Origin: Hymenobacter sp.
GTDB lineage: Bacteria; Bacteroidota; Bacteroidia; Cytophagales; Hymenobacteraceae
Assembly: GCA_025353905.1 (NCBI GenBank)
Contig: JANXNW010000176.1
Span: 1-61,637 of the forward strand
Length of the DNA: 61,637 nt
Reading direction: 5' to 3'
The position numbers and the translations under genes were made by a program. Below the pieces are notes generated by a model. The model made no database searches, was not told the DNA's origin, and worked only from the letters and a program-made list of their open reading frames with translations. Positions 1,384 through 59,814 of the stretch are shown piece by piece (positions within the stretch are counted from its first letter, which is position 1; each line of letters begins with the position of its first letter).

Positions 1384-1415
1384 CTAAATCAGTTAAATCA
1401 GTTAAATCCGCGGTC
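1384..1415. repeat. Short-word tandem repeat ending ATCCGCGGTC, abutting the rimO start
   Basis: Nonamer-like AAATCAGTT words are repeated with period 9 and end in ATCCGCGGTC at 1406-1415. The rimO TTG start follows with no gap. The end is the reverse complement of GACCGCGGAT found at other gene borders in this window. The rest of the 1263-1383 interval shows nothing I recognise. Confidence 0.75.
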
Positions 1416-2729
1416 TTGAAAGTCAGAACTCTAAAACAGAATAAAGTAAACGTCGTCACGCTGGGCTGCTCGAAAAACCTGGTGGACTCGGAGGTGCTCA
1501 TGGGCCAATTGCGGGCCAACGACTTCGCCGTGACCCACGAGGCCAAGCGGCCGGATGCGAACATCGTCATCGTCAATACCTGCGGCTTCATCGACAACGC
1601 CAAGCAGGAAAGCATCGACACCATCTTGCGCTACGCCGACGAGAAAGAGGCCGGCCGGCTGGATAAGCTCTACGTAACGGGCTGTTTGTCGCAACGCTAC
1701 AAGGACGAGCTGGAGGCCGAGATTCCGCAAGTGGACGCTTATTTTGGCACGCTGGAGCTGCCCCAGTTGCTGAAGGTGCTCAATGCCGACTACAAAAAGG
1801 AGTTGCTTGGCGAGCGGCTGCTCACTACGCCGCGCCACTACGCCTACTTCAAAATCGCGGAGGGCTGCAACCGGCCCTGTTCGTTTTGCGCCATTCCGCT
1901 CATGCGCGGGCAGCACGTCGATAGGCCAATGGAAGACCTTGTGCGCGAGGCCACGCGCCTGGTAAGCCTGGGTACGAAGGAGCTGATTCTCATCGCCCAG
2001 GACCTGACCTACTACGGCCTGCAGGCCTACGGCGAGCGGCGCTTGCCGGAGCTGCTGACCCGCCTGGCCGACGTGCCCGGTCTGGACTGGATTCGGCTGC
2101 AATATGCCTATCCGTCGCAGTTTCCGCTGGCCGCGCTCGACGTGATGCGCGAGCGGCCCAACGTGTGCCGCTACCTCGACATGCCCTTGCAGCACATTTC
2201 GGACAATATGCTCAAAACCATGCGCCGGGGCATCACGCGGCGGCGCACCGAGGAGCTGGTCGAAACCATTCGGGCGCGGGTGCCGGGCATTGCGCTACGC
2301 ACGACGCTCATCGCCGGCCACCCCGGCGAAACCGACCGCGACTTCGAGGAGCTGTGCGAGTTTGTGCAGAATGCTCGTTTTGAAAGACTAGGCATTTTTA
2401 CGTATTCGCACGAGGAAAATACCCACGCCCACACCCTGCCCGACGACGTGCCGGCCGACGTGAAGCAGGCCCGCGCCGACCGAATCATGGAAATTCAGCA
2501 GCAGATTTCGCTCGAGCACAACGAGGCGCGTATCGGGCAGACGCACAACGTGTTGTTCGACCGTTTCGAGGGCGGCTATTACGTGGGCCGTACCGAATTC
2601 GATTCGCCCGAGGTGGACAACGAGGTGCTCGTGCTGGCCCAGAGCGGGGTGCATCTGCCAGCCGGCTCGTTTGCCCAGGTGCGCGTGACGAGCGCGTCCG
2701 ATTTTGACTTGTACGGGGAGCTTGTCTAG
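1416..2729 (+). CDS. rimO: Ribosomal protein uS12 methylthiotransferase RimO
   Basis: RimO is a radical-SAM methylthiotransferase that adds a methylthio group to a conserved aspartate of ribosomal protein S12. The 437-residue protein has the three domains of the family. The N-terminal MTTase domain binds an auxiliary 4Fe-4S cluster through Cys18, Cys56 and Cys90 (LGCSKN, NTCGF, TGCLSQ). The radical-SAM domain has CNRPCSFC (Cys151, Cys155, Cys158). A C-terminal TRAM domain covers roughly the last 65 residues. LGCSKNLVDSE and the length distinguish RimO from MiaB. The start is a TTG at 1416, because no ATG or GTG lies at the expected distance and the family N-terminus (KVNVVTLGCSKN) begins at once. 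That TTG directly follows a repeat terminus. Confidence 0.95.
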   Translation: MKVRTLKQNKVNVVTLGCSKNLVDSEVLMGQLRANDFAVTHEAKRPDANIVIVNTCGFIDNAKQESIDTILRYADEKEAGRLDKLYVTGCLSQRYKDELEAEIPQVDAYFGTLELPQLLKVLNADYKKELLGERLLTTPRHYAYFKIAEGCNRPCSFCAIPLMRGQHVDRPMEDLVREATRLVSLGTKELILIAQDLTYYGLQAYGERRLPELLTRLADVPGLDWIRLQYAYPSQFPLAALDVMRERPNVCRYLDMPLQHISDNMLKTMRRGITRRRTEELVETIRARVPGIALRTTLIAGHPGETDRDFEELCEFVQNARFERLGIFTYSHEENTHAHTLPDDVPADVKQARADRIMEIQQQISLEHNEARIGQTHNVLFDRFEGGYYVGRTEFDSPEVDNEVLVLAQSGVHLPAGSFAQVRVTSASDFDLYGELV

Positions 2730-2869
2730 ACCGCGGATTTATCGGATTGAGCGGATTGGTCGGATTTTGGTGGGTAACCCGGGTTAGTGGGCAGAAGCAA
2801 ATTTTGAATACTTGAAGGCAATCGCCACCAAAATCCGTGTCATCCGACCAATCCGATAAATCCGCGGTT
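2730..2869. repeat. Imperfect inverted repeat of CGGATT words between rimO and bshC
   Basis: The left arm (2730-2775) begins ACCGCGGAT directly after the rimO TAG stop and consists of CGGATT words spaced 9-10 bp. The right arm (2825-2869) is its imperfect reverse complement and ends ATCCGCGGTT. A spacer of about 50 bp separates the arms. The right arm contains the probable GTG start of bshC at 2837. Confidence 0.85.
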
Positions 2870-4483
2870 CAGATAAGCTACGCCGCTACGGGCGCGTTTT
2901 CGGGCTTGCTCACCGACTACCTGGCCCAGGCGCCGGCCCTCGCGCCATTCTACCACCGCTTCCCGACGCTGGAGAATTTCGCGGCGCAAATCGAGGAGAA
3001 GCGCGCCGCGTATTCGGCCGAGGCGCGGCAGCGGCTGGTAACTGATTTGCGGGCGCAATACGCGGACTTGCAACTCGATACGCTGCCGACGGCCGTAGCC
3101 GCGAACCTGGAGTTATTGGGCCGCGACACCACGTTCACCGTCACGACCGGCCACCAGCTGAGTCTGCTCACGGGGCCGCTCTACGTGATTTACAAGCTGG
3201 TTACGGCCATCAAGCTGAGCCGCGAGCTGAAGGCGGCGTACCCGGCATTCGACTTCGTGCCGGTCTATTGGCTGGCTTCCGAAGACCATGATTTCGCCGA
3301 AATCAACCACTTTCAGCTTTTCGGCAAAACGTATAGCTGGGCCGGGCCGACCGGGGCCGATGGTACACCCGCGCTGGGCGGGCCGGTGGGCCGGTTGTCA
3401 CTCACGGGCCTCGACGCGGAGCTGCTCAGCCAGCTGCCGCCCGAAGTGCCGGTCGCTTTCCGAGAAGCGTATGCGCGAAGCCAAGCCTTGAGCGAGGCCA
3501 CGCGCCGGCTGATGACGAGCTTATTTGGCGAGCACGGCCTTGTCTGCCTCGATGCCGACCGGCCAGCCCTGAAGCAGGCATTGCGGCCGGTGCTGGCCAA
3601 GGAAATTCAGCAGCAAGCCTCGAACGCGGCGGTGCAGGCCACTAACGCCCAGCTGACGACCGCCGGCTATAAGCCGCAAGTGTATTCGCGGCCGCTCAAC
3701 CTGTTCTTTATCAGCGAAAAAGGCCAGCGCGAGCGCCTGGAGCCAGACGTGGCCGCGGGAGCCGACTGCACCCAGGTTACCGTGCGCGGCACGGCCCGCT
3801 GCCACACCACGGCCGAGTTGCTGGCCCTGGCCGATGCGCACCCCGAGCAATTCAGCCCCAACGTGGTGCTGCGGCCGCTCTACCAGGAGCTGCTGCTGCC
3901 CAACGTGTGCTACGTCGGCGGCGGGGCCGAAGTGGCGTATTGGTTTCAGCTCAAAGACGTGTTTGCGGCTTTCGGTGTGCCGTATCCGATTGTACTGCCC
4001 CGCAACTCGGCCCTTTATCTGAGCCGTGCCAACCTGGGCAAGCTCGCCAAGCTGGGCCTCACGCCAGCCGATGTTTTCCGACCGTTGGCGGAGCTGAAAA
4101 AGCAGGTCGGGGCCGCGCTGGGGCAGGAAGAAGTCAGCCTCGCCGACCAGCAAGCCCAGCTGCGCGCCGCTTTCGACGCGGTGGCCGCCCTGGCCCAGCG
4201 CCTCGACCCGACCCTGGTACGCACCGTGGCCGCCGAAGCCCAGAAGGCCGCTGCTACCGTCGCCAGCCTCGAAAAGCGCCTCAGCCGCGCCGCTGAAACC
4301 AAGCACGAAACTGCTTATGCCCAGCTCGCCGCTCTCCACGGTAAGCTTTTCCCCGAAGGCAGCTTACAGGAGCGGACGGATAACGTGCTCAGCATATCAA
4401 TTAACAACCCCGGCTTTATCGGGCAGCTGTTGGCGGCATTCGAGCCGCTGGCGCTGGAATTCACCGTGCTGGAGGAGGCCTAA
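2837..4483 (+). CDS. bshC: Bacillithiol biosynthesis cysteine-adding enzyme BshC
   Basis: BshC catalyses the last step of bacillithiol synthesis, adding cysteine to glucosaminyl-malate in the cytoplasm. The 548-residue length is normal for the family. Conserved stretches are TGHQLSLLTGPLYVIYK, the HD-containing YWLASEDHDFAEIN and NVVLRPLYQE with GGGAEVAYW. A C-terminal coiled coil is suggested by the Ala/Gln/Leu-rich segment around residues 430-510. The start is uncertain. An in-frame stop lies at 2813, and the only in-frame start between it and the family's conserved N-terminus (ISYAATGAFSG) is a GTG at 2837. About eleven residues would therefore be encoded by the palindromic repeat. bshA and bshB are not in the window. 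Confidence 0.93.
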   Translation: MSSDQSDKSAVQISYAATGAFSGLLTDYLAQAPALAPFYHRFPTLENFAAQIEEKRAAYSAEARQRLVTDLRAQYADLQLDTLPTAVAANLELLGRDTTFTVTTGHQLSLLTGPLYVIYKLVTAIKLSRELKAAYPAFDFVPVYWLASEDHDFAEINHFQLFGKTYSWAGPTGADGTPALGGPVGRLSLTGLDAELLSQLPPEVPVAFREAYARSQALSEATRRLMTSLFGEHGLVCLDADRPALKQALRPVLAKEIQQQASNAAVQATNAQLTTAGYKPQVYSRPLNLFFISEKGQRERLEPDVAAGADCTQVTVRGTARCHTTAELLALADAHPEQFSPNVVLRPLYQELLLPNVCYVGGGAEVAYWFQLKDVFAAFGVPYPIVLPRNSALYLSRANLGKLAKLGLTPADVFRPLAELKKQVGAALGQEEVSLADQQAQLRAAFDAVAALAQRLDPTLVRTVAAEAQKAAATVASLEKRLSRAAETKHETAYAQLAALHGKLFPEGSLQERTDNVLSISINNPGFIGQLLAAFEPLALEFTVLEEA

Positions 4484-4568
4484 CTGGTTGCCCAACTGGC
4501 CGCCGCTTGTTTCACACGTCCTAAATTGCGGCCGGCAACGTTTGCCAATCACCCAAGCCGTAAATGCT

Positions 4569-5462
4569 ATGACTAACTGGTTTATACGCGGTTTTTCCGC
4601 CTGCTTACTTTTCGCCCATGCTGCCTCAGGCCAATCGGTGCGCTACACTGGCTTGGTGGGCACCGCTCCCGTTGAGCTGACTTTGATGAAAAGTGACCAC
4701 GGACGAATTGAGGGCTTGTACGCTTACACCCGGTTTGGTACGCCGATTGGGCTGAGCGGCACCCTCAAGCAAGGGCTGCTTCAGCTAACGGAGCGCAACA
4801 GTTTGGGCAAAAGCAGCGCGAGCCTGACGATTACAGGCTTTGCGGATACGACCGCGACGGCCGCCGGAACCTGGAAAAACCTGGCTACCGGCCGGCAGAT
4901 TCCCCTGGTGCTTACTCAGCTTCCGCAGGGCGGGACGGAGTACGACACGGCATCAGGCGGGCACGAGCTGCTCCAGGAAGCCTCCTTGCCAAACATCTAT
5001 TTCAAAACCGTGCTAGCGGGAAATGCGGATGATTACAGCGGCTACGTCACCGCCGTCCGGCTCGTGGAAAAAAGAACTAACCGGCTGGTCCAGGAAGTCG
5101 TTGCGGGTGGCCAGTCGCACGGCCTGAGTAGTGTGCAAGTGGGGGATTACAACTTCGATGGTCATCCCGATTTTGAGGTGTTCGAGAGCAGCTACGCGGG
5201 GCCTAACACGTCAAGCGTTTATTTCCTCTACAATCCGCTCACGAAGCGCTACGTGAACAGTGGCTTTACCGGCACGTCGCTGGAATTTGACGCGCGCAAG
5301 AAGCGGATTTATGAACGCAACTCCTGCTGCGCCGGCTCTTCGGTAACCACGGCCGAGTACAAGGTAGTGCGCAACCGCATGGTGCTCGTGGCCGAGCATT
5401 GCTACCGCTGGGACGAAAAAAAGCAGCAGCTGGTAGAGCGCAAGCCCAGCGCCTGCCGGTAG
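4569..5462 (+). CDS. Secreted protein with XAC2610-like C-terminal region
   Basis: This 297-residue exported protein has a clear signal peptide: MTNWFIRGF, a hydrophobic core, then AHAASGQS. The middle (about residues 25-120) is rich in beta-strand-like segments (YTGLVGTAPVELTLM, GRIEGLYAYTRFG) that resemble ligand- or wall-associated modules. The C-terminal half has the DYNFDGHPDFEVFE motif, reminiscent of calcium-binding FG-GAP/VCBS loops, and a Cys pair (NSCCAGSS), as in XAC2610-related proteins. The ATG at 4569 was chosen over upstream in-frame starts because it gives the signal peptide. The bshC stop is 85 bp upstream. Function is unknown and the family call is from memory of sequence style. 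Confidence 0.7.
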   Translation: MTNWFIRGFSACLLFAHAASGQSVRYTGLVGTAPVELTLMKSDHGRIEGLYAYTRFGTPIGLSGTLKQGLLQLTERNSLGKSSASLTITGFADTTATAAGTWKNLATGRQIPLVLTQLPQGGTEYDTASGGHELLQEASLPNIYFKTVLAGNADDYSGYVTAVRLVEKRTNRLVQEVVAGGQSHGLSSVQVGDYNFDGHPDFEVFESSYAGPNTSSVYFLYNPLTKRYVNSGFTGTSLEFDARKKRIYERNSCCAGSSVTTAEYKVVRNRMVLVAEHCYRWDEKKQQLVERKPSACR

Positions 5463-5531
5463 CGTGCGCCGCTGGCCGTGGGCAGGGCCAGTTTGTGAAA
5501 TAATAACAAGCCAGCCAATACCAGAGAAGCC

Positions 5532-6062
5532 ATGTGTCGCTACGCTTTTTACTCGTACAAGCCGCACTACGCGTGCTTCGATTGCCGTAAGTCGTTCAAG
5601 CGGCGGCTGTTGAATGACGTGGACGAGAGCCGGGCTGAGTCAGCGGCGGCTACCTGCCCGGACTGCGGCGCGCTGACGGCCAACATGGGCAAAGACTTCA
5701 AAGCGCCGCCCCGGAAGGAGTTGAAAGCCTGGCAGCATCTGCGGCTGCTCTACTCGGTTGGCATCGCGTTTCATTCGTGCGGCTGCAACGGCCCCGGCTA
5801 CGTGCCGGCCGATGCTGGCCAGCTGGCCAACAGCTTAGCAGCCCGCCAAGCGGAATACGTGAAAAACCTGCGGTTCTGGCTTAATAAAGCTGAGCTGAGC
5901 AAGGCAGACTACGCGCGGGACCGACAAAAAAACTTCGAGTATTACGGCAGGCTACCCGATAAAGACAGCGGCGAAACCCCCGGCAAAGCGGTTGAATACT
6001 GGCAGGGCAAGCTGCGCGAGCTGGACGAAAAGCTGGCGCGCGCCCGGGCAGCGCTTGCCTGA
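5532..6062 (+). CDS. Conserved hypothetical protein with N-terminal zinc ribbon
   Basis: The 176-residue soluble protein begins MCRYAFYSYKPHYACFDCRKSFKRR. It has two CxxC pairs (CFDC near residue 15 and CPDC near residue 42) that could bind one zinc ion, and a third cysteine cluster SCGCNGPGY around residue 90. The C-terminal third is charged and helical, with a likely coiled coil (YWQGKLRELDEKLARARAALA). A zinc ribbon plus helical tail suggests nucleic-acid or protein binding, but I recognise no characterised family. It lies 69 bp after the secreted protein gene, in the same direction. Confidence 0.6.
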   Translation: MCRYAFYSYKPHYACFDCRKSFKRRLLNDVDESRAESAAATCPDCGALTANMGKDFKAPPRKELKAWQHLRLLYSVGIAFHSCGCNGPGYVPADAGQLANSLAARQAEYVKNLRFWLNKAELSKADYARDRQKNFEYYGRLPDKDSGETPGKAVEYWQGKLRELDEKLARARAALA

Positions 6063-6097
6063 AATGCCTGCGGCCGCCGGGCCGACTAGCAAAAACG

Positions 6098-6526
6098 TTA
6101 GGCTGTGGGGTTCGTCTCGTCCTTCACGCCCAGCAGCGAGCTGTGGTAGCGGGCTTCTTTCCAACGCTCGCCGACGCGCTTCCAAATGATGGTGCTCAGG
6201 GCGGAGAAGCGCAGGCGCTTGCCGTCGGGCGTGACCAGCATTTGGTCGAAATCGACGACGCAGTAGCCCATCTCGGCGGTCTGGACGGCTTCGTAGCCGG
6301 TGATTTCCGACCAGGTTTGGGCCTGGAGCTGGGTGAGCTGGGCGAAGAGGCCGCGAAACCAGGCTTCCCACTCGGCGCGGTTGCGCACGACGAGCGTGCC
6401 GCCCTCGGCGTTGATGTCCACGATGCCGAAATCATCGTCGCACAAGGCGGCGAGCGGCTCAAAGGCGTGGTCGCGCACGTGGGCGAAGAGCTGCTCGGTT
6501 TCGGCGTAAAAGGGTTTGTCGCGCAT
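6098..6526 (-). CDS. NTF2-like (SnoaL/DUF4440-type) domain protein
   Basis: The 142-residue protein has the size and pattern of a single NTF2-like cone-shaped domain. An N-terminal helix (AETEQLFAHVRDHAFEPLAALCDDDFGIVDIN) is followed by beta-strands with WEAWFRGLFAQL and a C-terminal strand pair, LSTIIWKRVGERWKEARYHSSLLG. The RWKEARYHSS ending is typical of DUF4440/SnoaL-like proteins, which act as small ligand-binding or isomerase domains. The ligand cannot be inferred. The gene converges with the zinc-ribbon gene (36-bp gap) and diverges from the cyclo-ligase gene. Confidence 0.7.
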   Translation of the reverse strand: MRDKPFYAETEQLFAHVRDHAFEPLAALCDDDFGIVDINAEGGTLVVRNRAEWEAWFRGLFAQLTQLQAQTWSEITGYEAVQTAEMGYCVVDFDQMLVTPDGKRLRFSALSTIIWKRVGERWKEARYHSSLLGVKDETNPTA

Positions 6527-6619
6527 GTTGGTGGGATTAGAGATGAAGGATGAGAGATTAGGGACTGGGGTTTATGAACGGGTTTTTAACCCTGACTAAT
6601 AGTTGATGTTTAGCTAACT

Positions 6620-7207: not shown

Positions 7208-7255
7208 GGCCGCATCGAGGAGGAGACGTCTCACCTTCTCATCTCATCACCCAAG

Positions 7256-7783: not shown

Positions 7784-7866
7784 GTTTGTTGCTTTTTGCT
7801 TTTTGTTTGTTGATAGTCAATCGACTGACTAACAAAAAGCAACAAACACTAAACAACAAACCTAAC
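7784..7866. repeat. Imperfect inverted repeat between convergent exbD and GDYXXLXY genes
   Basis: The left half repeats TTTGTTGCTTTTTG-like words and the right half carries the complementary AAAAAGCAACAAAC words, with a short centre near 7815-7830. It fills the 78-bp gap between two convergent genes and touches both ends, and could act as a bidirectional terminator. Confidence 0.75.
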
Positions 7867-9675: not shown

Positions 9676-9793
9676 GCAGCAAAAGCAAGTCAATGGTTAG
9701 TGAGTAATGGTCAGTGATTAATGATGGACGAAGCTCGGTCGGGGTCTGAAATTATTGACCATTAACCACTGACCATTAATCACTAACCACTAA
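9676..9793. repeat. Imperfect inverted repeat of TTAGTGATTAATGGTCAGTG-like words
   Basis: The left part (about 9690-9724) repeats TGGTTAGTGA/ATGGTCAGTG words. The right part (about 9750-9793) contains the complementary CATTAACCACTGACC and AATCACTAACCAC words. It fills the gap between the zinc-ribbon and DUF2157 genes. Confidence 0.75.
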
Positions 9794-10893: not shown

Positions 10894-10907
10894 CTGTACT
10901 TGCACGT

Positions 10908-12762: not shown

Positions 12763-12884
12763 GGTCATGCCCATCTGGCGTACGCGCAGCGCAGCGAAGT
12801 CGAAGCATCTCTACCGTTCCACCCGGACCGCACAACGAGGCGGTAGAGATGCTTCGACTCCGCTGCGCTACGCTCAGCATGACC
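12763..12884. repeat. GTCATGC...GAAGCATCTCTACCG palindromic repeat
   Basis: The left arm 12763-12816 and right arm 12841-12884 form an imperfect inverted repeat whose best-matched part is AGTCGAAGCATCTCTACCG. The outer ends read GGTCATGC and GCATGACC. It separates the SPFH and NAD-kinase-like genes and resembles dispersed palindromes common in this phylum. Confidence 0.85.
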
Positions 12885-14473: not shown

Positions 14474-14493
14474 CGCCCCGCTCGCTTTTACTT

Positions 14494-15624
14494 ATGCCTG
14501 CCGCGCCCACCGACCCTGCCGCTCCCGACCTGCTCCGCTACCGCCGCCAGGTGCAGCTGCCCGAAGTGGGGGCGGCCGGGCAGGCGCGGCTGGCCGGGGC
14601 GCGGGTGCTGGTGGTGGGCGCGGGCGGGCTGGGCTGCCCGGTGCTGCTGTACCTGGCCGCCGCCGGCGTGGGTACGCTCGGCCTGGCCGATGCCGACCGC
14701 GTGGAAGCCCACAACCTGCCCCGCCAAACCCTCTACGGCACCGCCGACGTGGGCGCGCGCAAAGTCGAGGCCGCCGCCCGCGCCCTGGCCCGGCTCAACG
14801 CCGACACCCGCACCGAGCTGCACCCGGTGCGCGTGCGGCCCGACAACGTGCGCGCCCTGGTCGGGGCCTACGACCTGGTGGTGGACGGCTCCGACAATTT
14901 CCCGACCCGCTACCTGCTCTCCGATGCCTGCGTGAGCCTGGGCCGGCCGCTGGTGTCGGGGGCCATTTATAGGTTTGAAGGGCAGGTGTCGGTGTTTAAT
15001 TACGACGGCGGGCCGACGTACCGCTGCCTGTTTCCGGTGCCGCCCGGCGCGGCCGAAGCGCCCGACTGCAACGTGACCGGCGTGCTCAATGTGCTGCCCG
15101 GCCTGGTTGGTTTGGTGCAGGCCACCGAGGCGCTCAAGGTGCTGCTCGGGCTGGGCGAGGTGCTCAGCGGCCGGCTCTGGCTGCTCGACGTGCGCAGCTT
15201 CCAAACGCGGCTGTTGCGCTTCCGGCGCGACCCCGTGCGCAGCCTCCTCAACCTCGACACCGCCGACCCGGCCGATTACCTTGACCCGGCCTGCGACCCG
15301 ACCACCACGCCCGTGGAGGGTAATAACTACCTCAACATCAATGCCGACGAGTTGCGCGTCGCCCTCGCTGGCCCCGACCCGCCGCTGCTGCTCGACGTGC
15401 GGCGGCCCGACGAGTTTGCCCGTCAGCATTTGCCCGGCTCGGTGCCGGTGCCGCTGGCCGAGCTGGCCGCCCGCGCCATTGAAGTACCTCGTGACCGTTT
15501 GGTGGTCGTCGTCTGCCAGAGTGGGGCGCGCAGCGCGCAAGCCGTGCGTCTGCTTCGCGAGGAGCTGGGTTTTGACGAGGTGCGCTCGCTGGCCGGCGGG
15601 TTGGCGGAATATTTTGATGGCTGA
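14494..15624 (+). CDS. moeB: ThiF/MoeB-type E1-like adenylyltransferase with C-terminal rhodanese domain
   Basis: The protein (376 residues) should adenylate the C-terminal GlyGly of MoaD, and through its rhodanese domain hand over sulfur, for molybdopterin synthesis. The N-terminal E1 domain (about 10-250) has LLRYRRQVQLPEVG, the nucleotide loop VVGAGGLGCPVLLYL, DGSDNFPTRYL and CNVTGVLNVLPG. The rhodanese domain (about 280-376) has LLLDVRRPDEFARQHLPG and active-site CQSGARS. The zinc-binding CxxC pairs of E. coli MoeB are missing: the position before YRC is Thr, and no later CxxC is present. The start at 14494 is chosen by homology. It leads the Moco cluster. Confidence 0.88.
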   Translation: MPAAPTDPAAPDLLRYRRQVQLPEVGAAGQARLAGARVLVVGAGGLGCPVLLYLAAAGVGTLGLADADRVEAHNLPRQTLYGTADVGARKVEAAARALARLNADTRTELHPVRVRPDNVRALVGAYDLVVDGSDNFPTRYLLSDACVSLGRPLVSGAIYRFEGQVSVFNYDGGPTYRCLFPVPPGAAEAPDCNVTGVLNVLPGLVGLVQATEALKVLLGLGEVLSGRLWLLDVRSFQTRLLRFRRDPVRSLLNLDTADPADYLDPACDPTTTPVEGNNYLNINADELRVALAGPDPPLLLDVRRPDEFARQHLPGSVPVPLAELAARAIEVPRDRLVVVVCQSGARSAQAVRLLREELGFDEVRSLAGGLAEYFDG

Positions 15625-15663
15625 GCGTGTAGAACGGAGTGCCACTCCGTTCTACACGCTCAG
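15621..15663. repeat. Palindrome with 20-bp perfect arms at the moeB stop
   Basis: The arms CTGAGCGTGTAGAACGGAGT and its exact complement flank a 3-bp centre. The moeB TGA (15622-15624) is inside the left arm. Another half-copy (ACGGAGTGCCCCTCCGT) lies at 15740-15763 before the transporter start, and a relative sits at the uvrC stop near 59.7 kb. Confidence 0.9.
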
Positions 15664-15771
15664 CGGCAAGCCTCGGTCCTTCCGTTTGGGCGGCGTCCGC
15701 TCCTTCCAACCTCACGCGCACCTGCCGCTGCGCGGCAAAACGGAGTGCCCCTCCGTTCTACACTCTTACCC

Positions 15772-16938
15772 ATGCTGCTTACCCAAACTGCCCGCCCATC
15801 CTTGCGCTTCGACCGCCACGAGCTGGCCGGGGCGCTCGGCGGGCTGGGCACCGACTTGCCGCTGCTCATCGGGGTGCTGGGCGCGTCGCCGGGGCTGGAT
15901 GCGGCCAGCGTGCTCATCCTGTTCGGGTTGATGCAGGTGGCCAGCGGGCTCTGGTACCGGATGCCCATGCCGGTGCAGCCGCTCAAAGGGTTCGCGGCGC
16001 TGGTCATCGCCCAGCGTATTCCGGCCCCGGTTATTGCCGGGGGCGGGCTGGCGGTGGGTATCGGGATGCTGCTGCTGAGCGTGTCGGGGCTGTTGGGCGG
16101 GCTGGCGCGGCTCGTGCCGAAGGCCGTCATTCGGGGTATTCAGCTCGGGCTGGCTTTGCAGCTGAGCACGCTGGCGCTGAAAACTTACGTGCCCAGCGAC
16201 GGGGCAGTCGGCTACGGGCTGGCGGCGGTGGCCTTTGGGCTGACGGCCGTGCTGCTGGGCCACCGCCGCTACCCGGCCGCGCTGGTGGTAGTGGGCCTGG
16301 GCGTGGCCTGGGCGCTGGCTTTTCGATTTAACTGGGCCGCTTGGGCCGGGGCCGGCCACGCCGTGGGCCTGCGCCTGCCCACGCCCTACCTGCCCACCTG
16401 GCCCGACCTCGCCACCGGGGCCGTGCTGTTGGCCCTGCCCCAGATTCCGCTCTCGCTCGGCAACTCGGTGCTCGCCACCCGGCAGGTCGTGCAGGATTAT
16501 TTTCCCGAGCGCCCGCTCAGCGTCCGCCAAATCGGGCTCACCTACGCGCTGATGAATTTTGTCGGCCCCGTGCTCGGTGGCTTTCCGACTTGCCACGGCT
16601 CGGGCGGATTGGTGGGGCACTACGCCTACGGGGCGCGCACGGGCGGCTCGGTCGTGCTCTATGGCGGGCTGTACCTGACGTTAGGTCTTTTTTTTAGCCC
16701 TGGTTTCACCGAAGTGGTGAAGATTTTCCCGCTGCCAGTGTTGGGCGTACTCTTGCTGTTCGAGGCCCTTACGCTGGCCGCGCTGCTGCGCGATTTGGCC
16801 GCCGACCGCGCCGCGCTGCTGTTGGCCCTGCTCGTGGGCGTAGTTTGCGCCAACCTGCCCTACGGCTACCTCGTAGGGCTGCTGCTGGGTACGGCCGTGC
16901 ATTACGCGCAGCGGGCCGGCTGGCTGGGGTGGAAGTAG
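15772..16938 (+). CDS. MOT1-type molybdate (sulfate-family) transporter
   Basis: The 388-residue membrane protein belongs to the MOT1/putative sulfate-molybdate transporter branch of the SulP superfamily. It carries both MOT1 signatures: PMPVQPLKGFAAL (about residues 65-77) in an early helix, and PQIPLSLGNSV (about 223-233) followed by CHGSGGLVGHYAYGARTGG. About ten or eleven hydrophobic helices are visible, and no STAS domain. Position between moeB and moaA makes molybdate the likely substrate and suggests uptake is made together with cofactor synthesis. The ATG at 15772 follows a repeat copy closely. Confidence 0.88.
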   Translation: MLLTQTARPSLRFDRHELAGALGGLGTDLPLLIGVLGASPGLDAASVLILFGLMQVASGLWYRMPMPVQPLKGFAALVIAQRIPAPVIAGGGLAVGIGMLLLSVSGLLGGLARLVPKAVIRGIQLGLALQLSTLALKTYVPSDGAVGYGLAAVAFGLTAVLLGHRRYPAALVVVGLGVAWALAFRFNWAAWAGAGHAVGLRLPTPYLPTWPDLATGAVLLALPQIPLSLGNSVLATRQVVQDYFPERPLSVRQIGLTYALMNFVGPVLGGFPTCHGSGGLVGHYAYGARTGGSVVLYGGLYLTLGLFFSPGFTEVVKIFPLPVLGVLLLFEALTLAALLRDLAADRAALLLALLVGVVCANLPYGYLVGLLLGTAVHYAQRAGWLGWK

Positions 16939-17139
16939 GATGAGGGATTAGGGATACAGGATTAGGGATTTATGATAAGGCATTTTATCCAACACATTAT
17001 TCCTTCTGCTGCCCCTCCGCGTGAACTGCCTGAATAGCTTGTTTAACCGTTCTCGTATCCAGTCCATAGTCTCTTGTCCTTAATCCCTCATCTCTCATCC
17101 TGAGTCCCTCATCCCTAATAATCCCTAATCCAACAAACC
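16939..17139. repeat. Inverted arrays of GGATTAGGGAT words between transporter and moaA
   Basis: The left part (about 16936-16980) repeats GGATTAGGGAT-type words. The right part (about 17075-17131) repeats the complementary AATCCCTCATC and ATCCCTAAT words. The centre shows nothing recognisable. No Moco riboswitch could be identified here. Confidence 0.75.
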
Positions 17140-18473: not shown

Positions 18474-18585
18474 TTTTCAATGAGCAATTACCAATGAGCA
18501 ATGAGCAATTCTCGCCAATGCTGCACGGCAATGTTCATTGACTAGAATTGTTCATCGTTCATTGCTCATTGTTCATTGCTTACTG
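18474..18585. repeat. Inverted arrays of AATGAGCAATT words between moaD and moaE
   Basis: The left array (18478-18517) repeats AATGAGCAATT. The right array (18536-18578) repeats the complementary ATTGCTCATTGTTCATTGC words. The spacer between them is about 20 bp. Confidence 0.85.
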
Positions 18586-22831: not shown

Positions 22832-23548
22832 TTAGTTGAACAGCCAGCGCGCGGCTTTCCGGGTCCATCTGGCCAGCGCGCCTTTGGTAGGTGCGCTTTT
22901 GGTTGGCAGCAGCGTCACGTTCTCCACGGCATGGCTATCCTCCTCAATGTGTACTTCCTCGTCGGTATAGCCGCTGTAGCCGTACGCCAGCGTGGTAGGC
23001 CGGCCGTAGGGTACCTGCAAGGAATAAGCACCTTCGGCATTCGTGCTCACGCCCCGGCGGGTATTTTTCTCGAATACCGTGGCTCCCACCAGCGGCTTGC
23101 CACTCTCGTCCAGGATTCTGCCGCTTATCGTTGCCATTACCAGTGCCTCGGTGCCGGTGGCGGGGGTTTTGCCCAGCGTAGATACTGCCGACGGCGAAGC
23201 CACTACTTTACCGGGGGCAACCGGCGTAGCGTGGCGCGCGAACACGGCCCCGACCAGGAGCATGGTTACGGCCATCAGGGCGGCCGCTTGCCGGCGGGTC
23301 CGCCCCGTCGAGGTCCGCACCCGGTCAATCTGACGCTGCATCCAGCCCACGGCTAATACTTGTTCGCCGGTTTGGGCCATTTCGTGGTAGCGCTGCCACG
23401 TCTGGGTGCCGCGCGCCGTGTTTTTTTGCAGGTAGTTATCTACCATTCGGGTGTGCTCCGCGGTCAAGTCGCCGCGGAGGTAAGCGTCGCGGTAAGCTGG
23501 GAGCAGCTCACCGGTGTGCTGACTAAAGGGAAAAGCAGTTAGTGCCAT
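22832..23548 (-). CDS. Membrane protein with zinc-finger-less anti-sigma-like N-terminus and CarboxypepD_reg-like domain
   Basis: The 238-residue protein has three parts. Residues 1-70 (LPAYRDAYLRGDLTAEHTRMVDNYLQKN) resemble the cytoplasmic region of anti-sigma factors but lack the HxxxCxxC zinc site. One transmembrane helix lies near 85-105 (QAAALMAVTMLLVGAVFA). A periplasmic carboxypeptidase-regulatory-like beta-sandwich spans about 135-215 (ISGRILDESGKPLVGATVFEKNTRRGVSTNAEGAYSLQVP). The topology suggests signalling or surface-associated function, but no sigma factor is adjacent. Confidence 0.6.
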   Translation of the reverse strand: MALTAFPFSQHTGELLPAYRDAYLRGDLTAEHTRMVDNYLQKNTARGTQTWQRYHEMAQTGEQVLAVGWMQRQIDRVRTSTGRTRRQAAALMAVTMLLVGAVFARHATPVAPGKVVASPSAVSTLGKTPATGTEALVMATISGRILDESGKPLVGATVFEKNTRRGVSTNAEGAYSLQVPYGRPTTLAYGYSGYTDEEVHIEEDSHAVENVTLLPTKSAPTKGALARWTRKAARWLFN

Positions 23549-37133: not shown

Positions 37134-37312
37134 CGCGCCATTGGCGATTATTCTGGTGGAGCGCCCCGCTAATACCCGCCGCGCCGTGCGCTAGCTGCTG
37201 GCCCACGCGTATGGCGTTTATCATTCATAAATTAACCTTTAAAACTTGTCAGTCAGCAGTCGCATTGTCAATTGATAAGCGTTAATTGTTAATTGATAAA
37301 GGTTAATAGGAC

Positions 37313-54900: not shown

Positions 54901-55088
54901 TGCCGGGGGCTAAGGTCGCCCGCACCTACGCCATCCGGCTGCGCGGGCCGCAGTCGCCGCTGGGTCGCCTGCGCGGGCAGGGCTACCAGGTGCTGCTCAT
55001 CAGCCTCGCCAACCTGGCCCTGCTGCAACAAAGCGGCGGCGATGTGGCCGGCTATCAGCAATTTTTCCAGCAGGTTTACCCCCAGTAG
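51972..55088 (+). CDS. sprE: T9SS/gliding lipoprotein SprE (PorW-like), TPR repeats
   Basis: SprE is a periplasmic, outer-membrane-anchored component needed for type IX secretion and gliding. The 1038-residue protein starts at a TTG (51972) with a lipoprotein signal ending GLGAVAC (lipid Cys25); longer in-frame starts would put Ala/Arg-rich sequence before it. TPR-like helices fill about 60-560 (LVGWSRFYKMEFDDAVLTFKYV, ARELFLARADFYLQTGEPEQAIAQLERAVPL, ERSRTRFILAQLYQQQGQSKEAAAQLNQIL). The C-terminal part has LIEAAQYALGGIYKEQLQEP. A Pro/Ala/Ser-rich linker of about 110 residues (about 810-920) precedes the last domain (AVVLLYPAGQPP to FFQQVYPQ). Its identity fits GldM/GldN nearby. Confidence 0.85.
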   Translation: MKPALLLSFCRCWLLAALGLGAVACASDKSLVSHKLNNIAARDNGFFLAREKLAEVEGTLYQGRLNDYNRVLPLFPTLDSTSVRAGRGDLNDIIKKASLPIQHRPGSDWTDDAYLLVGWSRFYKMEFDDAVLTFKYVNSTSKDDFAKQAALIGLLRTFLITKQLDNAKAVSDVLEKEIGLPKDARELFLARADFYLQTGEPEQAIAQLERAVPLIPLKNERSRTRFILAQLYQQQGQSKEAAAQLNQILSHNPPYELDFQSKLLLGHVSDLQDPKSQARLDKYFAGLLKDPKNKEYRDKIYYEMGRVQYRQKHYADALALLGKSAHIGGPNRSQKGYTYLLAGRICYENLQKYPLAAAYYDSTVQAMPKDNPLYAAIQERAGVLKEFAKNYVVIQTQDSLQALTRLPETELNARLTRYAVAALEAKRLADAKAAAQQKALAQQREQQGRAGAGTGVGGSSPASQPSALSGNQRDISNPNAFDPSNAGAGSGLWYFDNPGTLSSARSDFVRLWGDRKLQDNWRTVSAPNTAAGGAAPPVAGQPGNNGGAGGGKPGDPAAAVIDPLAAQRDLVVVYRQSLPDSPPKLEASDRLIEAAQYALGGIYKEQLQEPQRGYDTYAAQVARYPRGAHAADADYLLYLYYKELPDPAKAAGYAAALQREFPNSTYAKLLADPLFREHERALHVAVVARLDSAFALYKDQFFTKAKAAVARLERAYPKHDLLDRVAYLKLLLALRTQPPPAARASVAQFIKDFPDSPLAGQARTLAGAYQKAETGQLAGALASTEPPRVSQFRPGEVDNRVRILYDGVNDNGAPAPVVAPPAPPGNPQPAPNADKPAEKPGAAPAGAQPASPPASVNGGASPSSPATPTTPAGTTVPPAAPGASAAAADGGAPAAAAPTAAAAATPAPASAPAVAYATELSAAHAVVLLYPAGQPPVANLAAQLGGYNGKFFGADNLRVLPAQPLGAGQEAVVVRALPGAKVARTYAIRLRGPQSPLGRLRGQGYQVLLISLANLALLQQSGGDVAGYQQFFQQVYPQ

Positions 55089-55137
55089 CTTTGCGGTATG
55101 AAGGGCGCGGTGCGAATTGCGCTTGCCCGTTTCGTCG

Positions 55138-55239
55138 GTCATTGCAAGCGCAGCGAAGCAATCGCCCCTGTTCAGCCGCGTCTGACGAGCTTAGCAGCGG
55201 ACTGAACAGGTGCGATTGCTCCGCTGCGCTCGCAATGAC
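55138..55239. repeat. Imperfect inverted repeat GTCATTGC...CAATCGC...GTTCAG
   Basis: The left arm 55138-55177 and right arm 55198-55239 are imperfect complements with outer ends GTCATTGC and GCAATGAC. The words AGCGCAGCGAAGCAATCG are shared with a repeat known widely in bacterial intergenic DNA. It lies between sprE and the PBP1A gene. Confidence 0.85.
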
Positions 55240-55302
55240 GGGCGTTATTTGACCCAGCAAAAAACAACCAACAATCAGCCACCAACAACCAACAACCCAA
55301 CT

Positions 55303-57657
55303 ATGCCCACGCTTCCTCCCCGCCCCACGCGCGCACCCATTCCGGCCCGGCGGGGGCCGGCGCCGGCCCGGCCGGGCCGCTTCCGGGGTTTCGTGCGGAC
55401 GCTGTGGCTGCTGACGGTGGGCGGCGCGCTTGGGCTGGGCGCGTGGGTGCTGGCCGTGAATACCAATGCGGGCAACCTGTTCGGGCGAATGCCCAATCTG
55501 CGGACGCTCGAAAATCCGCGCTCCGAGCTGGCCTCGGAGGTGTACTCGGCCGACGGGGTGCTGCTGGGCAAGTATTTTCGCGAAAACCGGACGCCGGTAG
55601 ACTACGAAGACCTGCCCCAGAACGTGATTGACGCGCTCATCGCTACTGAGGACGTGCGCTTTGAGCAGCATTCGGGCATCGACCCCAAAAGCATCGCGCG
55701 GGCCGTGGCCGGGCTGGGGCGCGGCGGCGGCGGCTCCACGCTCTCGCAGCAGGTGGCCAAGGTACTCTTCCGTACCCGCGACGACCTGAGCGACGGCGCC
55801 TGGAACGGGCCCGGCAAGCTCGGCCTGCTCATCATCAAAACCAAGGAATGGCTGCTGGCCGTGCGCCTGGAGCGCAGCTATACCAAGCGCGAAATCCTGC
55901 GCATGTACCTCAATACGGTAGACTTCGGCTCGAACGCGTTCGGCATCAACACGGCGGCGAAAACGTTTTTCAACAAAAAACCGCTCGACCTGACCACGCC
56001 CGAAGCGGCCACGCTGGTGGGCATCGTGAACGCGCCTTCGCGCTTCAGTCCCGCTGCCCACCCGGTCCGCTCGAAACGCCGTCGCAACTGGGTGCTCCAG
56101 CAGATGAGCAAGGCCGGCTACTTGCCCGTAGCCCAGATGCAAAAAGATACCGCCGGGACTATCCGCCTGCATTATTCGGTCGAAAGCCCCAGCCAGGGCC
56201 TGGCCCCGTACTTCCGTTCGGAGGTGGCCAAAAGCCTGGCCGGCTGGGCCAAAGACAACGACAAGGACCTCTACGCCGATGGCCTGAAAATCTACACCAC
56301 CCTGGATTCTCGCCTGCAGGCCGCCGCCGAGAAGTCGGTGGCCGAGCACCTGGCCTTGCAGCAAAAGTGGTTTTCGGCCCACTGGAAAGGCCAACTCCCG
56401 TGGCGCGACGAGAACGGCCGCGTCATTCCGCAGTTTTTGGAAACGGCCATGCGCCGCACCCAGCGCTACAAGTCGCTGATGAACCAGTACGACGGCAACC
56501 GCGACTCGGTGAACTACTACCTGCGCAAGAAATACCCGATGACGGTTTTCAGTTGGCAGGGCGAGAAGGAGGTTACGATGTCGCCGATGGACTCGCTGGC
56601 CTACTACAAGCGGTATTTGCAGGCGGGTTTTCTGGCCGTCAATCCGCTCAACGGCTACGTGCGGGCCTGGGTAGGCGGGGCCAATTTCAAGTTTTTCAAG
56701 TTCGACCACGTGCGCCAGGGCAAGCGCCAGCCGGGCTCCACATTCAAGCCGTTCGTGTACACGGCCGCCATCGACCAGGGCTACTCGCCCTGCTTTCCGC
56801 GGCCCGACATTGCCACCACTTTCCCCGGCGAAGCCGGGCGCGCACCCTACACGCCCCACAATTTCGAGGGCGTTTTTTCGGGGCGCGTGTTTACGCTGCG
56901 CCAAGCGCTGGCGCGGAGTATGAACTCGATTACGGGCTGGCTCGTGTACAAGCTCGGGCCGGAAACGGTAGTGGCTTACGCCAAGCGCATGGGCATCAGC
57001 TCGCCGATTGATGCGGTGCCCTCGGTGGGTTTCGGCTCTTCTGATTGCAGTATTTTCGAGCTCGTGGGCGCGTACGGGACCTTCGTCAATAAGGGTGTCT
57101 GGACAGGGCCGCTGCTGGTGACGCGCATCGAGGACCGCCACGGTAACGAGCTGCGCCACTTCGTGGCCCAAACCAAAGAGGCACTCAGCGAAGAAACTGC
57201 CTACGTGATGACCAACATGCTGCAAGCCAGCACCACCGACCCCGGCGGCACGAGCACCGTGCTGCACCAGGGCTTTAAATTCCCGTTTCAAATCGGGGCC
57301 AAAACCGGCACCACCTCCAACTACTCCGATGCCTGGTTCATGGGCCTCACCCCGAACCTGGTCTGCGGCATGTGGATTGGCGGCGAAGACCGCAGCATCC
57401 ACTTTCGCACCGGCTCCTACGGCCAGGGGGCACGCCTGGCCCTGCCGCTCTACGGCTTGTTCATGCAGAAAGCGCTCAAAAACAAAGGCAGCGACGTGGA
57501 CGTGGATACCCGCCCTTTCCCCGCGCCCAGCAAGCCGCTCAGCATCGAGCTCGATTGCAGCCAGTACACGGGCGGCGGCAGCCTGCGCGACACGATTCCC
57601 AACGACCAGAAACTGCCCCCACCTGTTACCAATCCGCTGGACGACCAGGAAATATAG
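55303..57657 (+). CDS. Class A penicillin-binding protein (PBP1A-type transglycosylase/transpeptidase)
   Basis: This bifunctional enzyme polymerises and cross-links peptidoglycan outside the inner membrane. The 784-residue protein has a Pro/Arg-rich cytoplasmic tail (1-30) and one transmembrane helix (about 31-51). The GT51 domain has catalytic Glu116 in EDVRF, GGSTLSQQVAK and the LERSYTKREILRMYLNTVDFGSNAFGI motif. The transpeptidase domain has Ser479-x-x-Lys482 (STFK), SMN (539-541) and KTGT (667-670). The gene starts at ATG 55303 after a repeat. Its stop TAG is followed at once by the repeat terminus ACCGCAGAT. Confidence 0.95.
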   Translation: MPTLPPRPTRAPIPARRGPAPARPGRFRGFVRTLWLLTVGGALGLGAWVLAVNTNAGNLFGRMPNLRTLENPRSELASEVYSADGVLLGKYFRENRTPVDYEDLPQNVIDALIATEDVRFEQHSGIDPKSIARAVAGLGRGGGGSTLSQQVAKVLFRTRDDLSDGAWNGPGKLGLLIIKTKEWLLAVRLERSYTKREILRMYLNTVDFGSNAFGINTAAKTFFNKKPLDLTTPEAATLVGIVNAPSRFSPAAHPVRSKRRRNWVLQQMSKAGYLPVAQMQKDTAGTIRLHYSVESPSQGLAPYFRSEVAKSLAGWAKDNDKDLYADGLKIYTTLDSRLQAAAEKSVAEHLALQQKWFSAHWKGQLPWRDENGRVIPQFLETAMRRTQRYKSLMNQYDGNRDSVNYYLRKKYPMTVFSWQGEKEVTMSPMDSLAYYKRYLQAGFLAVNPLNGYVRAWVGGANFKFFKFDHVRQGKRQPGSTFKPFVYTAAIDQGYSPCFPRPDIATTFPGEAGRAPYTPHNFEGVFSGRVFTLRQALARSMNSITGWLVYKLGPETVVAYAKRMGISSPIDAVPSVGFGSSDCSIFELVGAYGTFVNKGVWTGPLLVTRIEDRHGNELRHFVAQTKEALSEETAYVMTNMLQASTTDPGGTSTVLHQGFKFPFQIGAKTGTTSNYSDAWFMGLTPNLVCGMWIGGEDRSIHFRTGSYGQGARLALPLYGLFMQKALKNKGSDVDVDTRPFPAPSKPLSIELDCSQYTGGGSLRDTIPNDQKLPPPVTNPLDDQEI

Positions 57658-57901
57658 ACCGCAGATAATCGCAGATTTTGCAGAATGCTCGTCGGATGTT
57701 GGAACCTCGTCTGACGTTGGATTCAATCGTGCGCTCATCAATCTGCGAGTACCAACACACTTTTCGCTTTGTTCAGTTTACATTGAATCCAACGTCAGAC
57801 GAGGCTCCAACATTGAACGAGCATTCTGCAAAATCTGCGATTAAATCCAACGTCAGACGAGGCTCCAACATCCGACGAGCATTCTGCAAAATCTGCGATT
57901 A
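57658..57901. repeat. Inverted plus tandem repeat element between PBP1A and uvrC
   Basis: One copy at 57667-57723 is inverted relative to two direct 58-bp copies at 57786-57843 and 57844-57901. Each copy carries GACGAGC, GCAAAATCTGCGATT and AACGTCAGACGAGG words. The element begins ACCGCAGAT next to the PBP1A stop and ends two bases before the uvrC ATG. Confidence 0.92.
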
Positions 57902-57902
57902 A

Positions 57903-59714
57903 ATGGCTGCCTCTTCTACTCTCCAAGCGCAAATCGACCACCTGCCGCACCGGCCGGGCGTGTACAAATACTACGGCCACGGCGACGACGAGGACACGAT
58001 TATCTACGTCGGTAAGGCGATTGACTTGCGCAAGCGCGTCTCGTCGTACTTCACCAAGCAGGACCACAACAAGAAAACTCAGCAGCTGGTCAAGAATATC
58101 CGCCGCATCGAGTTCACCATCGTGGACTCGGAGTCGGATGCGTTTCTGCTCGAAAACAACCTCATTAAGCAGCACCGGCCCAAGTACAATATCCTGCTCA
58201 AGGATGGCAAGACCTACCCGTATCTGCTGCTGACCAACGAGCGGTTTCCGCGCCTGATTCCGACCCGCAACAAGCGGCCCGGCGACGGCCAGTATTTCGG
58301 CCCCTACGCCAACGTGACGGGCATGAACCTGATAGTCGAGCTGGTGCGGGCCTTGTACCCGCTGCGCACCTGCACCTATAATTTGTCGGCGGAAAACGTG
58401 GCGGCCGGCAAGTTTCGGCCGTGCCTGGAGCTGCAGCTCGGCAACTGCAAAGCCCCCTGCGTGGCCCGCGAGGACGAGGACACTTACAACGGCTACATCC
58501 AGCAAATCCGGCAGATTCTGAAAGGGGATTTGCGCCTGCCGAAGCAGTATTTCCGCGAGCGGATGACGAGCGCCGCACAGGACATGCAGTACGAGCTGGC
58601 CCACCAGTTCAAGGTCAAGCTCGACCGGCTCGAAGACTTCCAGACTAAGAGCACCATCGTCAATGCCAACCTAACGGACATCGACGTGTTCGCCATCGCC
58701 TCGAACGAGAAGGCCGCGTTCGTCACTTATTTCCGGGTGATGAACGGCTCTATTATTCTGACCCAGAACCTGGAATTGGTCAAGAAGCTCGACGAGGAAG
58801 ACGCCGAGATTCTGGCTCTGCTTGCCATGCAATTGCGTCACGAGTTCGAGAGCGAGAGCCGCGAAATCCTCAGCAACGTGGCCCTGGAGCTGCCCCTGCC
58901 GGGCGTGGCCGTGAGCGTACCCCAAATCGGCGACAAGCGCAAGCTGCTGGAGTTGGCCATTAAAAACGTGCTCTACGCCCGCAAGGAAAAGGAGAGCATG
59001 AACGAGAAAAGCAAGGACCTCAACGAGGTGCGCATCATGGAGGTCATCAAAAAAGACCTGCGCCTGACGGAGCTGCCCAAGCACATCGAGTGCTTCGACA
59101 ACTCGAACTTTCAGGGCGACAACCCGGTGGCGGCCATGGTGTGCTTTCGCAATGCGCGCCCCAGCAAGCGCGACTACCGCCACTACCACATCAAAACGGT
59201 CGTCGGTCCCGACGACTTCCAGTCGATGTACGAGGTCGTGCACCGCCGCTATCGCCGCCTCGTGGACGAGGGAGCCAGCCTGCCCCAGCTCGTGATAGTG
59301 GACGGCGGCAAGGGCCAGCTCAGCATGGCCGTCAAGGCGCTCAAAGACCTCAACCTCTGGGGCCAGATGGCGATAATCGGCATCGCCAAGCGCCTCGAAG
59401 AAATCTACGTGCCCAACGACCCGCTGCCGCTCTACATCGACAAAAAGAGCGAAAGCTTGCGCCTGTTCCAGCGCATGCGCGACGAGGTCCACCGATTCGG
59501 CATCACCTTCCACCGCTCCCTACGCGATGCGGGCACCCTCAAAACGGAGCTGACCGACGTCAAAGGCTTGGGTCCCGTCACGGCCGACAAGCTGCTCACC
59601 AAGTTTAAGTCGGTCAAGAAAATCCGCGAGCTGACCGAAGCCGAGCTTATTGGCGAGGTGGGCAAGGCGAAAGCGAAAGTGCTGCAAGCCTACTTCGCGC
59701 AACAGGAAGCGTAG
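57903..59714 (+). CDS. uvrC: UvrABC excinuclease subunit C
   Basis: UvrC makes the two incisions flanking a DNA lesion in nucleotide-excision repair. The 603-residue protein has the GIY-YIG nuclease domain at the N-terminus (GVYKYYGHGDDEDTIIYVGKAIDLRKRVSSYF, about 18-50), the cysteine region CLELQLGNCKAPC, a UVR-type middle, the RNase H-like C-terminal endonuclease domain (ECFDNSNFQGDNPVAAMVCF, VIVDGGKGQLS) and a helix-hairpin-helix pair (DVKGLGPVTADKLLTKF, EVGKAKAKVL). The ATG at 57903 follows a tandem repeat by one base. The stop TAG lies in a palindrome of the TAGAACGGAG family. Confidence 0.97.
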   Translation: MAASSTLQAQIDHLPHRPGVYKYYGHGDDEDTIIYVGKAIDLRKRVSSYFTKQDHNKKTQQLVKNIRRIEFTIVDSESDAFLLENNLIKQHRPKYNILLKDGKTYPYLLLTNERFPRLIPTRNKRPGDGQYFGPYANVTGMNLIVELVRALYPLRTCTYNLSAENVAAGKFRPCLELQLGNCKAPCVAREDEDTYNGYIQQIRQILKGDLRLPKQYFRERMTSAAQDMQYELAHQFKVKLDRLEDFQTKSTIVNANLTDIDVFAIASNEKAAFVTYFRVMNGSIILTQNLELVKKLDEEDAEILALLAMQLRHEFESESREILSNVALELPLPGVAVSVPQIGDKRKLLELAIKNVLYARKEKESMNEKSKDLNEVRIMEVIKKDLRLTELPKHIECFDNSNFQGDNPVAAMVCFRNARPSKRDYRHYHIKTVVGPDDFQSMYEVVHRRYRRLVDEGASLPQLVIVDGGKGQLSMAVKALKDLNLWGQMAIIGIAKRLEEIYVPNDPLPLYIDKKSESLRLFQRMRDEVHRFGITFHRSLRDAGTLKTELTDVKGLGPVTADKLLTKFKSVKKIRELTEAELIGEVGKAKAKVLQAYFAQQEA

Positions 59715-59737
59715 AACGGAGTGGCACTCCGCTTTAC
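59711..59737. repeat. GTAGAACGGAGTG palindrome at the uvrC stop
   Basis: GTAGAACGGAGTGG and CACTCCGCTTTAC form an imperfect hairpin, and its first TAG is the uvrC stop. The same word family occurs at the moeB stop (15621-15663). Confidence 0.8.
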
Positions 59738-59776
59738 ACAAAAAAGGCCCGTGCTGCAAGCACGGGCCTTTTTTGT
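59738..59776. terminator. Bidirectional terminator between uvrC and gldN
   Basis: The 15-bp arms AAAAAAGGCCCGTGC (59740-59754) and complement (59760-59774) flank a 5-nt loop, giving A6/T6 tracts on both sides. It serves both convergent genes. Confidence 0.92.
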
Positions 59777-59804
59777 ATCCGTTTAATTCGTTGAATCAGT
59801 TCGC

Positions 59805-59814
59805 ATCCGCGGTC
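59805..59814. repeat. ATCCGCGGTC element terminus abutting the gldN stop
   Basis: Read on the minus strand, GACCGCGGAT follows the gldN TAA (59815-59817) with no gap. It is preceded on the plus strand by AATTCGTTGAATCAGTTCGC, consistent with the short-word element family. Confidence 0.75.

Follow-up and report, generated by a model that had tools for sequence, protein, structure and literature searches.

The window analyzed here, 61,637 nucleotides of contig JANXNW010000176.1 from a Hymenobacter sp. draft genome (4.14 Mb, 82% complete), contains palindromic repeats around rimO, bshC, PBP1A, uvrC and gldN that lie at the ends of these genes. The gene names come from an earlier reading of the sequence and not from matches to a family library, and the genes were called with our own codon-usage script, which has no ribosome-site model and gives stops more surely than starts. 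A preliminary description of the window had reported a ten-letter word, or a one-base variant of it, at five gene borders; all five sites are present, and every coordinate is correct. The rimO stop codon TAG (2727-2729) shares its G with the first base of GACCGCGGAT (2729-2738), and the G of the PBP1A stop TAG (57655-57657) also begins GACCGCAGAT (57657-57666). On the minus strand, the gldN stop (59817-59815) is followed directly by GACCGCGGAT (59814-59805). The rimO start TTG at 1416 is abutted by ATCCGCGGTC (1406-1415), and ATCCGCGGTT (2860-2869) is inside the bshC frame.

These words belong to larger structures. Between rimO (1416-2729, plus strand), whose stop TAG falls in the element tip GTCTAG, and bshC (called as 2837-4483, plus strand) lies an element consisting of a left arm on the plus strand with the tip GTCTAGACCGCGGATT (2724-2773), a loop of 51 nt with no notable reading frame (2774-2824) and a right arm with the tip TCTGAACCGCGGATT on the minus strand (2825-2874); the inverted repeat spans 2719 to 2879. 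The right arm contains the in-frame GTG 2837 that is the called start of bshC, while the native upstream region and the conserved first codons of the gene (MAAADCITLP in the related locus L013) are missing. Downstream of PBP1A, inverted repeats form a left arm on the plus strand that starts at the stop TAG (TAGACCGCAGATAATCGCAGATT...; 57655-57729) and a right arm on the minus strand in two tandem copies (57782-57901), the second of which stops 1 nt short of the uvrC ATG 57903. Single arms touch the rimO TTG (1385-1415; GACCGCGGATTTAACTGATTTAACTGATTTA on the minus strand, with a motif match at 1396-1414) and lie immediately past the gldN stop (59777-59814; GACCGCGGATGCGAACTGATTCAACGAATTAAACGGAT on the minus strand). 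An Rfam search of the whole window returned 0 matches above the gathering score.

The ten-letter word is not the repeat unit; we rejected it as such because it is not enriched alone and is a variant of a longer tip. With at most one mismatch it has 7 matches in the window against 5.74 expected (at least 7 in 33 of 100 shuffles), and two of the 7, at 23456 and 55514, are within predicted genes. The draft genome has 9 exact copies of the word and 3 of a reversed control, with 3 of the 9 copies (L003, L004 and L008) intragenic, and it has 22 matches to the fuller motif ACCGCRGATTNNNNNGATT and 0 to its reversed control. Sixteen of the 22 pair into 8 inverted pairs with a span of 137-291 bp. The usual tip reads (T)GTCTGAACC(G/A)C(G/A)GATT, with the core TGTCTGAACC, and is followed by the words NNNCGGATT, a loop and the inverted arm; the rimO tip is GTCTAG-ACC, and GACCGCGGAT is the tip variant with G in place of A. 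In all, we collected 105 element candidates with inverted arms; median spans are 175-192 bp for complete elements between convergent or tandem genes. The loops of separate loci look unrelated by eye and are plain, hold a terminator-like hairpin or enclose a gene of the GxxExxY family. The words are the tips of a family of dispersed palindromic intergenic elements, which is probably mobile.

Of 101 Hymenobacter genomes, 26 contain the tip motif and none its reversed control. In a species genome collection, the ACCACGG version of the tip occurs in 76 stretches, 70 of them from Hymenobacter; the others are from uncultured Bacteroidetes/Bacteroidia (4), Desulfonema magnum (one) and Caldilineales (one). 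By eye, the tip in the Caldilineales stretch is about 12 nt past the stop of a 320-amino-acid frame, and the Desulfonema stretch has no clear neighboring gene. We searched one open-access literature library and found no description of this element in Hymenobacter.

To count contacts with genes, tips were gathered by pattern irrespective of genes in two sets, the genus motif scan and the ACCACGG search. Among 133 3'-facing tips (65 and 68 by set; 1 arm was skipped, and only identical flanks were dropped, so that orthologous sites across genomes are not independent), 126 supply the stop codon of the adjacent gene or follow it within 10 nt: 73 (36 and 37) provide the stop, the TGA of TGTCTGA, and 53 (26 and 27) sit 0-10 nt past the gene's own stop. 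The remaining 7 are further off (3 and 3) or are read past (0 and 1). Thus, 74 genes enter a tip, of which 73 stop in frame at its TGA, a result that is very unlikely with random frames (p 7e-34) and means that selection or a process sets the frame. In the 73 cases contact exists because the tip carries a stop codon; the rest of the stop-codon contact comes from elements filling the spacer. The 64 5'-facing tips (36 and 28) touch a start codon in 29 cases, 20 of which (13 and 7) are within -8 to 10 nt of it and 9 of which (3 and 6) hold the start inside the arm, and the others are further away (20 and 15). The elements tend to occupy the whole interval between a stop codon and whatever follows it, be this another stop, a start or a promoter-like block.

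We compared the elements with other palindromes in an inverted-repeat scan that covered the window, the named Hymenobacter loci without their seed elements, and 400 kb of a single genome. Sorted by sequence only, under class rules of our own, 16 of 24 edges of elements with short-word arms were within 8 nt of a gene, compared to 12 of 74 edges of GTCAT-type palindromes (Fisher p 7e-6); the counts were 5 of 24 for the GTAG/GC type and 21 of 60 for other repeats. Both edges were within 12 nt in 7 of 12 short-word elements versus 2 of 37 GTCAT-type palindromes. The rimO-bshC element and the element at 57666 were classed as other, and the short-word class took in no row from the window. The window itself has GTCAT-type palindromes at 12784-12873, which was counted in this comparison, and at about 55135-55255. 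Placement within fixed spacers did not deviate from uniform (32 observed, mean 30), a consequence of the elements filling the spacer. With all repeat classes pooled, the slack left in spacers with an inverted repeat has a median of 46 versus a spacer median of 140 (p 2e-7). The gene-border pattern is real and unusually sharp. The suggestion that zero-gap contact is not neutral agrees with the contact being sharper than that of GTCAT-type palindromes, but a stop codon in the tip explains 73 of the 133 cases, and no more than 29 of the 64 5'-facing tips reach a start.

Alignments of orthologous loci, as proposed in the preliminary description, show what stands at the same place in relatives. The bshC DNA of L112 (genome G037) and L298 (G081) is 90.7% identical, and 196 bp in L112 stand in place of the 42-bp spacer of L298; the ATG is unchanged, and the L112 gene is one codon longer at its end (TTTGTCTGA versus TTCTAA). 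With relatives picked by hand for this test, there was no detectable trace of the 42-bp spacer in L112 (score 8.0; shuffle mean 8.1). The element at L113 begins at the stop codon but ends 2 nt short of a conserved promoter-like block rather than at a codon, with a weak likeness to the old terminator segment (scores of 17 and 16 versus shuffle maxima of 17 and 14.5). There was no obvious target-site duplication by eye at L112 or L113 compared to relatives, and no systematic search for one was made.

Gene ends change at other loci as well. At L098, by eye, the end of the upstream protein shifts by about one codon, from LRKAE or LRKVD without the element to LRKAV or LRKADV with it, and arm sequence occupies the position of the downstream ATG, with a GTG in the arm as the likely start in L160. 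Four relatives share 110 nt upstream of bshC (pairwise 63.5-78 to L013), and this DNA has no match beyond shuffles to the window spacer 2730-2880; in L027 and L038 an arm tip is at nearly the same place as in the bshC of the window. At the L092 site, two species have an element enclosing a GxxExxY gene, the two genes in L171 overlap by 4 bp, and the spacer measures 112-367 bp in the remaining relatives.

Within an element, the arms are more alike than arms of different copies. In 105 candidates, including a few mispaired arms and a few loci from outside Hymenobacter (L224, L268 and L279), the inner 30 nt of paired arms agree with a mean of 0.77 (median, 0.87), compared to 0.66 for arms of other elements of the same genome, and none of 5000 partner shuffles within genomes reached the observed match (49 elements). 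At orthologous sites, with sites and arms chosen by us, the average score is 36.6 between the two arms of a single species (n = 24) and 25.3 for the best of four comparisons between species (n = 40). Some species go against this trend, for example, G034 at L094 with 13 within and up to 30 between. In L138 and its ortholog L309, both arms are altered alike around an alignable loop. Hairpin-templated copying and selection for an RNA stem would each yield matching arms.

Some longer elements carry a gene for a small protein. The gene in the loop at L092 matches TIGR04256 with 136.7 bits (cutoff, 35), and the corresponding Pfam family, PF13366 (GxxExxY), is named for the PD-(D/E)XK superfamily. 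PF13366 was detected in 42 of the 61 Hymenobacter genomes searched, with a match over the cutoff in 41, and GxxExxY in 39 of 80 genomes of a phylum sample. In the genus, 28 of 30 loci (30 genomes, with one top match per genome) have a flanking inverted repeat with a score of at least 20, compared to none of 98 control genes of 80-220 amino acids from the single genome G029 (maximum score, 14), and 44 of 60 outer edges are within 8 nt of the adjoining gene. The arms represent several short-word families, among them CGGATT: a GxxExxY gene lies between CGGATT-type arms in L131, L224, L225, L268 and L291, and in L092 with a varied left arm. L224 and L268, from two uncultured Bacteroidetes bins, have a near-identical GxxExxY protein encoded between TGTCTGAACCACGG arms in what is apparently the same gene neighborhood. 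Across the 61 genomes, the number of GxxExxY genes correlates with the number of tip motifs (Spearman 0.41, p 0.001).

The site pattern of PD-(D/E)XK enzymes is E ... D ... ExK ... Q, and each of the expected residues (E31, D70, E80, K82 and Q94 in L216 numbering) is present in 57 of 58 aligned proteins. From these residues, the GxxExxY protein of the elements is predicted to be nuclease-like. The search for a solved structure related by sequence gave none (best E, 0.42). One relative was found in viral_contigs. In the same literature library, we found neither a functional study of GxxExxY nor a printed link between this family and such elements. Genes of another family, PF05635 (23S_rRNA_IVP), are also flanked in the genus by heptamer-like inverted words resembling the other word types of the window; at loci L338-L357, inverted arms reach a score of 20 in 5 of 20 cases and a score of 16 in 10 of 20 (control, 0 of 98).

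The best explanation in our view, to which we give about an even chance, is that these are mobile palindromic elements that replace spacers with the aid of the GxxExxY nuclease-like protein. We hypothesize that the elements spread by a reaction that swaps out the spacer, in which the protein encoded by full-length copies would make or trim a break. Junctions would persist where functional DNA begins, the stop codon in the tip would raise the number of viable junctions, and the arms would then be kept alike by hairpin-templated copying, RNA-stem selection or both. A process that targets gene borders had been suggested before, for example an RNA-primed or nuclease-guided event at stop codons; spacer loss compared to some relatives and a nuclease-like protein with such arms are consistent with it, but an RNA-primed or stop-codon-guided process is hypothetical, and selection may account for the contact. 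A more specific version is quite speculative, namely that the elements replace the transcribed, untranslated interval from where the ribosome stops to the next translation start or promoter. Such a pattern would be expected if a GxxExxY nuclease acted on transcript free of ribosomes, on R-loops or on hairpin DNA.

Several observations weigh against the replacement of spacers with the aid of GxxExxY. None of the loci shows an insertion in progress; both the replacement and the way in which it would proceed are inferred, and the comparisons with relatives, made without a tree, are unpolarised for gain versus loss. The old terminator at L113 may persist in the loop (scores of 17 and 16). At L120/L307 and L142/L312/L313, relatives have the loop terminator in common while the arms differ or have decayed; cores can therefore outlive arms, an outcome not expected if whole elements are replaced. 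Outside the genus, in the rest of the phylum, for which we used arm scores only as gene calls are unreliable there, arms reach a score of 20 in 4 and a score of 16 in 8 of the 27 loci that are long enough (of 29), and therefore the link is weaker or the arms are shorter there. The presence of GxxExxY is not significantly associated with the presence of the motif (17/3/25/16, Fisher p 0.08), and just two elements, one of the 54 convergent and one of the 41 tandem ones, had an inner gene. The predicted structure of GxxExxY was too poor for use (predicted local distance difference test [pLDDT], 41).

Could the elements instead be functional hairpins like the repetitive extragenic palindromes (REPs), whose stem is kept after the stop by selection for termination, processing (e.g., by RNase III) or mRNA stability, with the link to GxxExxY being secondary? 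This is a serious but clearly less probable alternative. It fits the orientation of the 97 complete elements, of which 54 are convergent, 41 tandem and 2 divergent, compared to 59, 207 and 56 of 322 gene pairs sampled in G029 (p 4e-13), and the frequency of loops with a terminator-like hairpin (40 of 54 convergent elements, 11 of 41 tandem ones and 0 of 2 divergent ones), as well as the stable predicted fold of the window element (-90.7 kcal/mol, z -11.5). According to PMC3733652, REPs are mostly located less than 20 bp from both convergent 3' ends. However, the elements are patchy in the genus (26 of 101), several word families behave alike, arms have taken over start codons at 9 of 64 5'-facing tips, and GTCAT-type palindromes of the same sequence collection are less close to genes. 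The last point also bears on random insertion anywhere in the spacer with later loss of surplus, nonfunctional DNA, which we consider unlikely. The little slack in spacers with repeats of all classes and the L113 element ending beside a promoter-like block are consistent with such losses, but GTCAT-type palindromes face the same losses and yet come within 8 nt of a gene at only 12 of 74 edges, and the elements with near-identical arms (L138 and L142) are already in contact with genes, although mutual copying of arms would mask their age.

It is improbable that the inserting machinery targets stop codons directly, as the preliminary description proposed. Such targeting would account for contact at 126 of 133 stops versus 29 of 64 starts, and for 73 genes ending in frame versus 1 read past, but most of these stops belong to the element itself, an equal bias could arise if only viable products survive, and elements also terminate at start codons and beside a promoter-like block. 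That a common word touches genes by chance has next to no probability: the word alone is unenriched in the window and 3 of its 9 exact genomic copies are intragenic, but the 22 versus 0 matches of the fuller motif, the comparison between palindrome classes and the 126 of 133 contacts refute this explanation.

The elements differ from the known systems that come closest. REPs are associated with the REP-associated tyrosine transposase. Their GTAG and CGTC superfamilies are described in PMC3733652 as intergenic palindromes mostly near 3' ends, and GTAG tips often give the flanking genes their TAG stop; hence, palindromes that supply stop codons were already known. The elements share these features with REPs but have the tip TGTCTGAACC, a span of about 140-200 bp, long arms of degenerate words, some start codons taken over and GxxExxY in longer members. 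Neither the GTAG/CGTC tag at the palindrome end nor the REP palindrome size of 20-40 bp was found: the tips of the 22 draft-genome matches and of the fetched loci have the form (T)GTCTGAACC or a variant of it, and the elements in that genome measure 137-291 bp. Miniature inverted-repeat transposable elements (MITEs) are short, dispersed and mostly geneless, with inverted ends, much like our 105 candidates with terminal inverted repeats. In contrast to MITEs, the loops of our elements look unrelated by eye, the arms match within and differ between copies, the spacer is lost rather than interrupted, and elements with the same ends carry GxxExxY and no known transposase, although no transposase search was made.

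The short tandemly repeated repetitive (STRR) sequences of cyanobacteria consist of heptamer words. According to PMC2670836, they are degenerate short spacer words able to form hairpins, which also holds for the elements described here; the CGGATT words have 8-9 nt, a fixed tip and GxxExxY as a partner, whereas the arms around PF05635 genes of the genus have heptamer-like words. Intervening sequences of 23S rRNA have inverted arms around a gene for the IVP/S23 four-helix protein. The elements likewise have inverted arms around a small gene, but their site is between protein genes and not in rRNA, and the protein encoded in CGGATT elements belongs to the GxxExxY family.

If the elements indeed replace the transcribed, untranslated interval, they would represent a new kind of mobile element that senses gene borders via transcription and translation and rewrites whole spacers, with arms that are copied from each other. 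The widespread GxxExxY family would gain a testable role through palindromic elements at gene borders. Dispersed DNA can provide genes with stop codons and RNA stems, and at times with start codons, while leaving the genes intact.

The window contains other degenerate short-word repeats, at 1-35, 6527-6566, 7784-7861, 9694-9789, 16939-17136, 18474-18585 and 37290-37312. They are of the types GATTAGGG, GTTTGTTG, TTAGTGA, CAATGAG, TTAATTG and CAGTCACT; several form inverted pairs, and several contact stop or start codons. A GTAG-type palindrome, GTAGAACGGAGTGCCACTCCGTTCTAC, occurs at 15617-15664 and 15738-15773, and its exact full form is present at one place in the genome. The uvrC stop TAG (59712-59714) is followed by AACGGAGTGGCACTCCG, which resembles this type. 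Elsewhere, a frame named by eye as an IS200/IS605-like TnpA, with a hairpin alongside, lies next to a truncated element (L136:1718-2230); we rejected it as the mobilizer and read this single case as a later insertion. In the 478-bp element of L134, a GTCAT-type palindrome is apparently nested in the left arm, as judged by eye.

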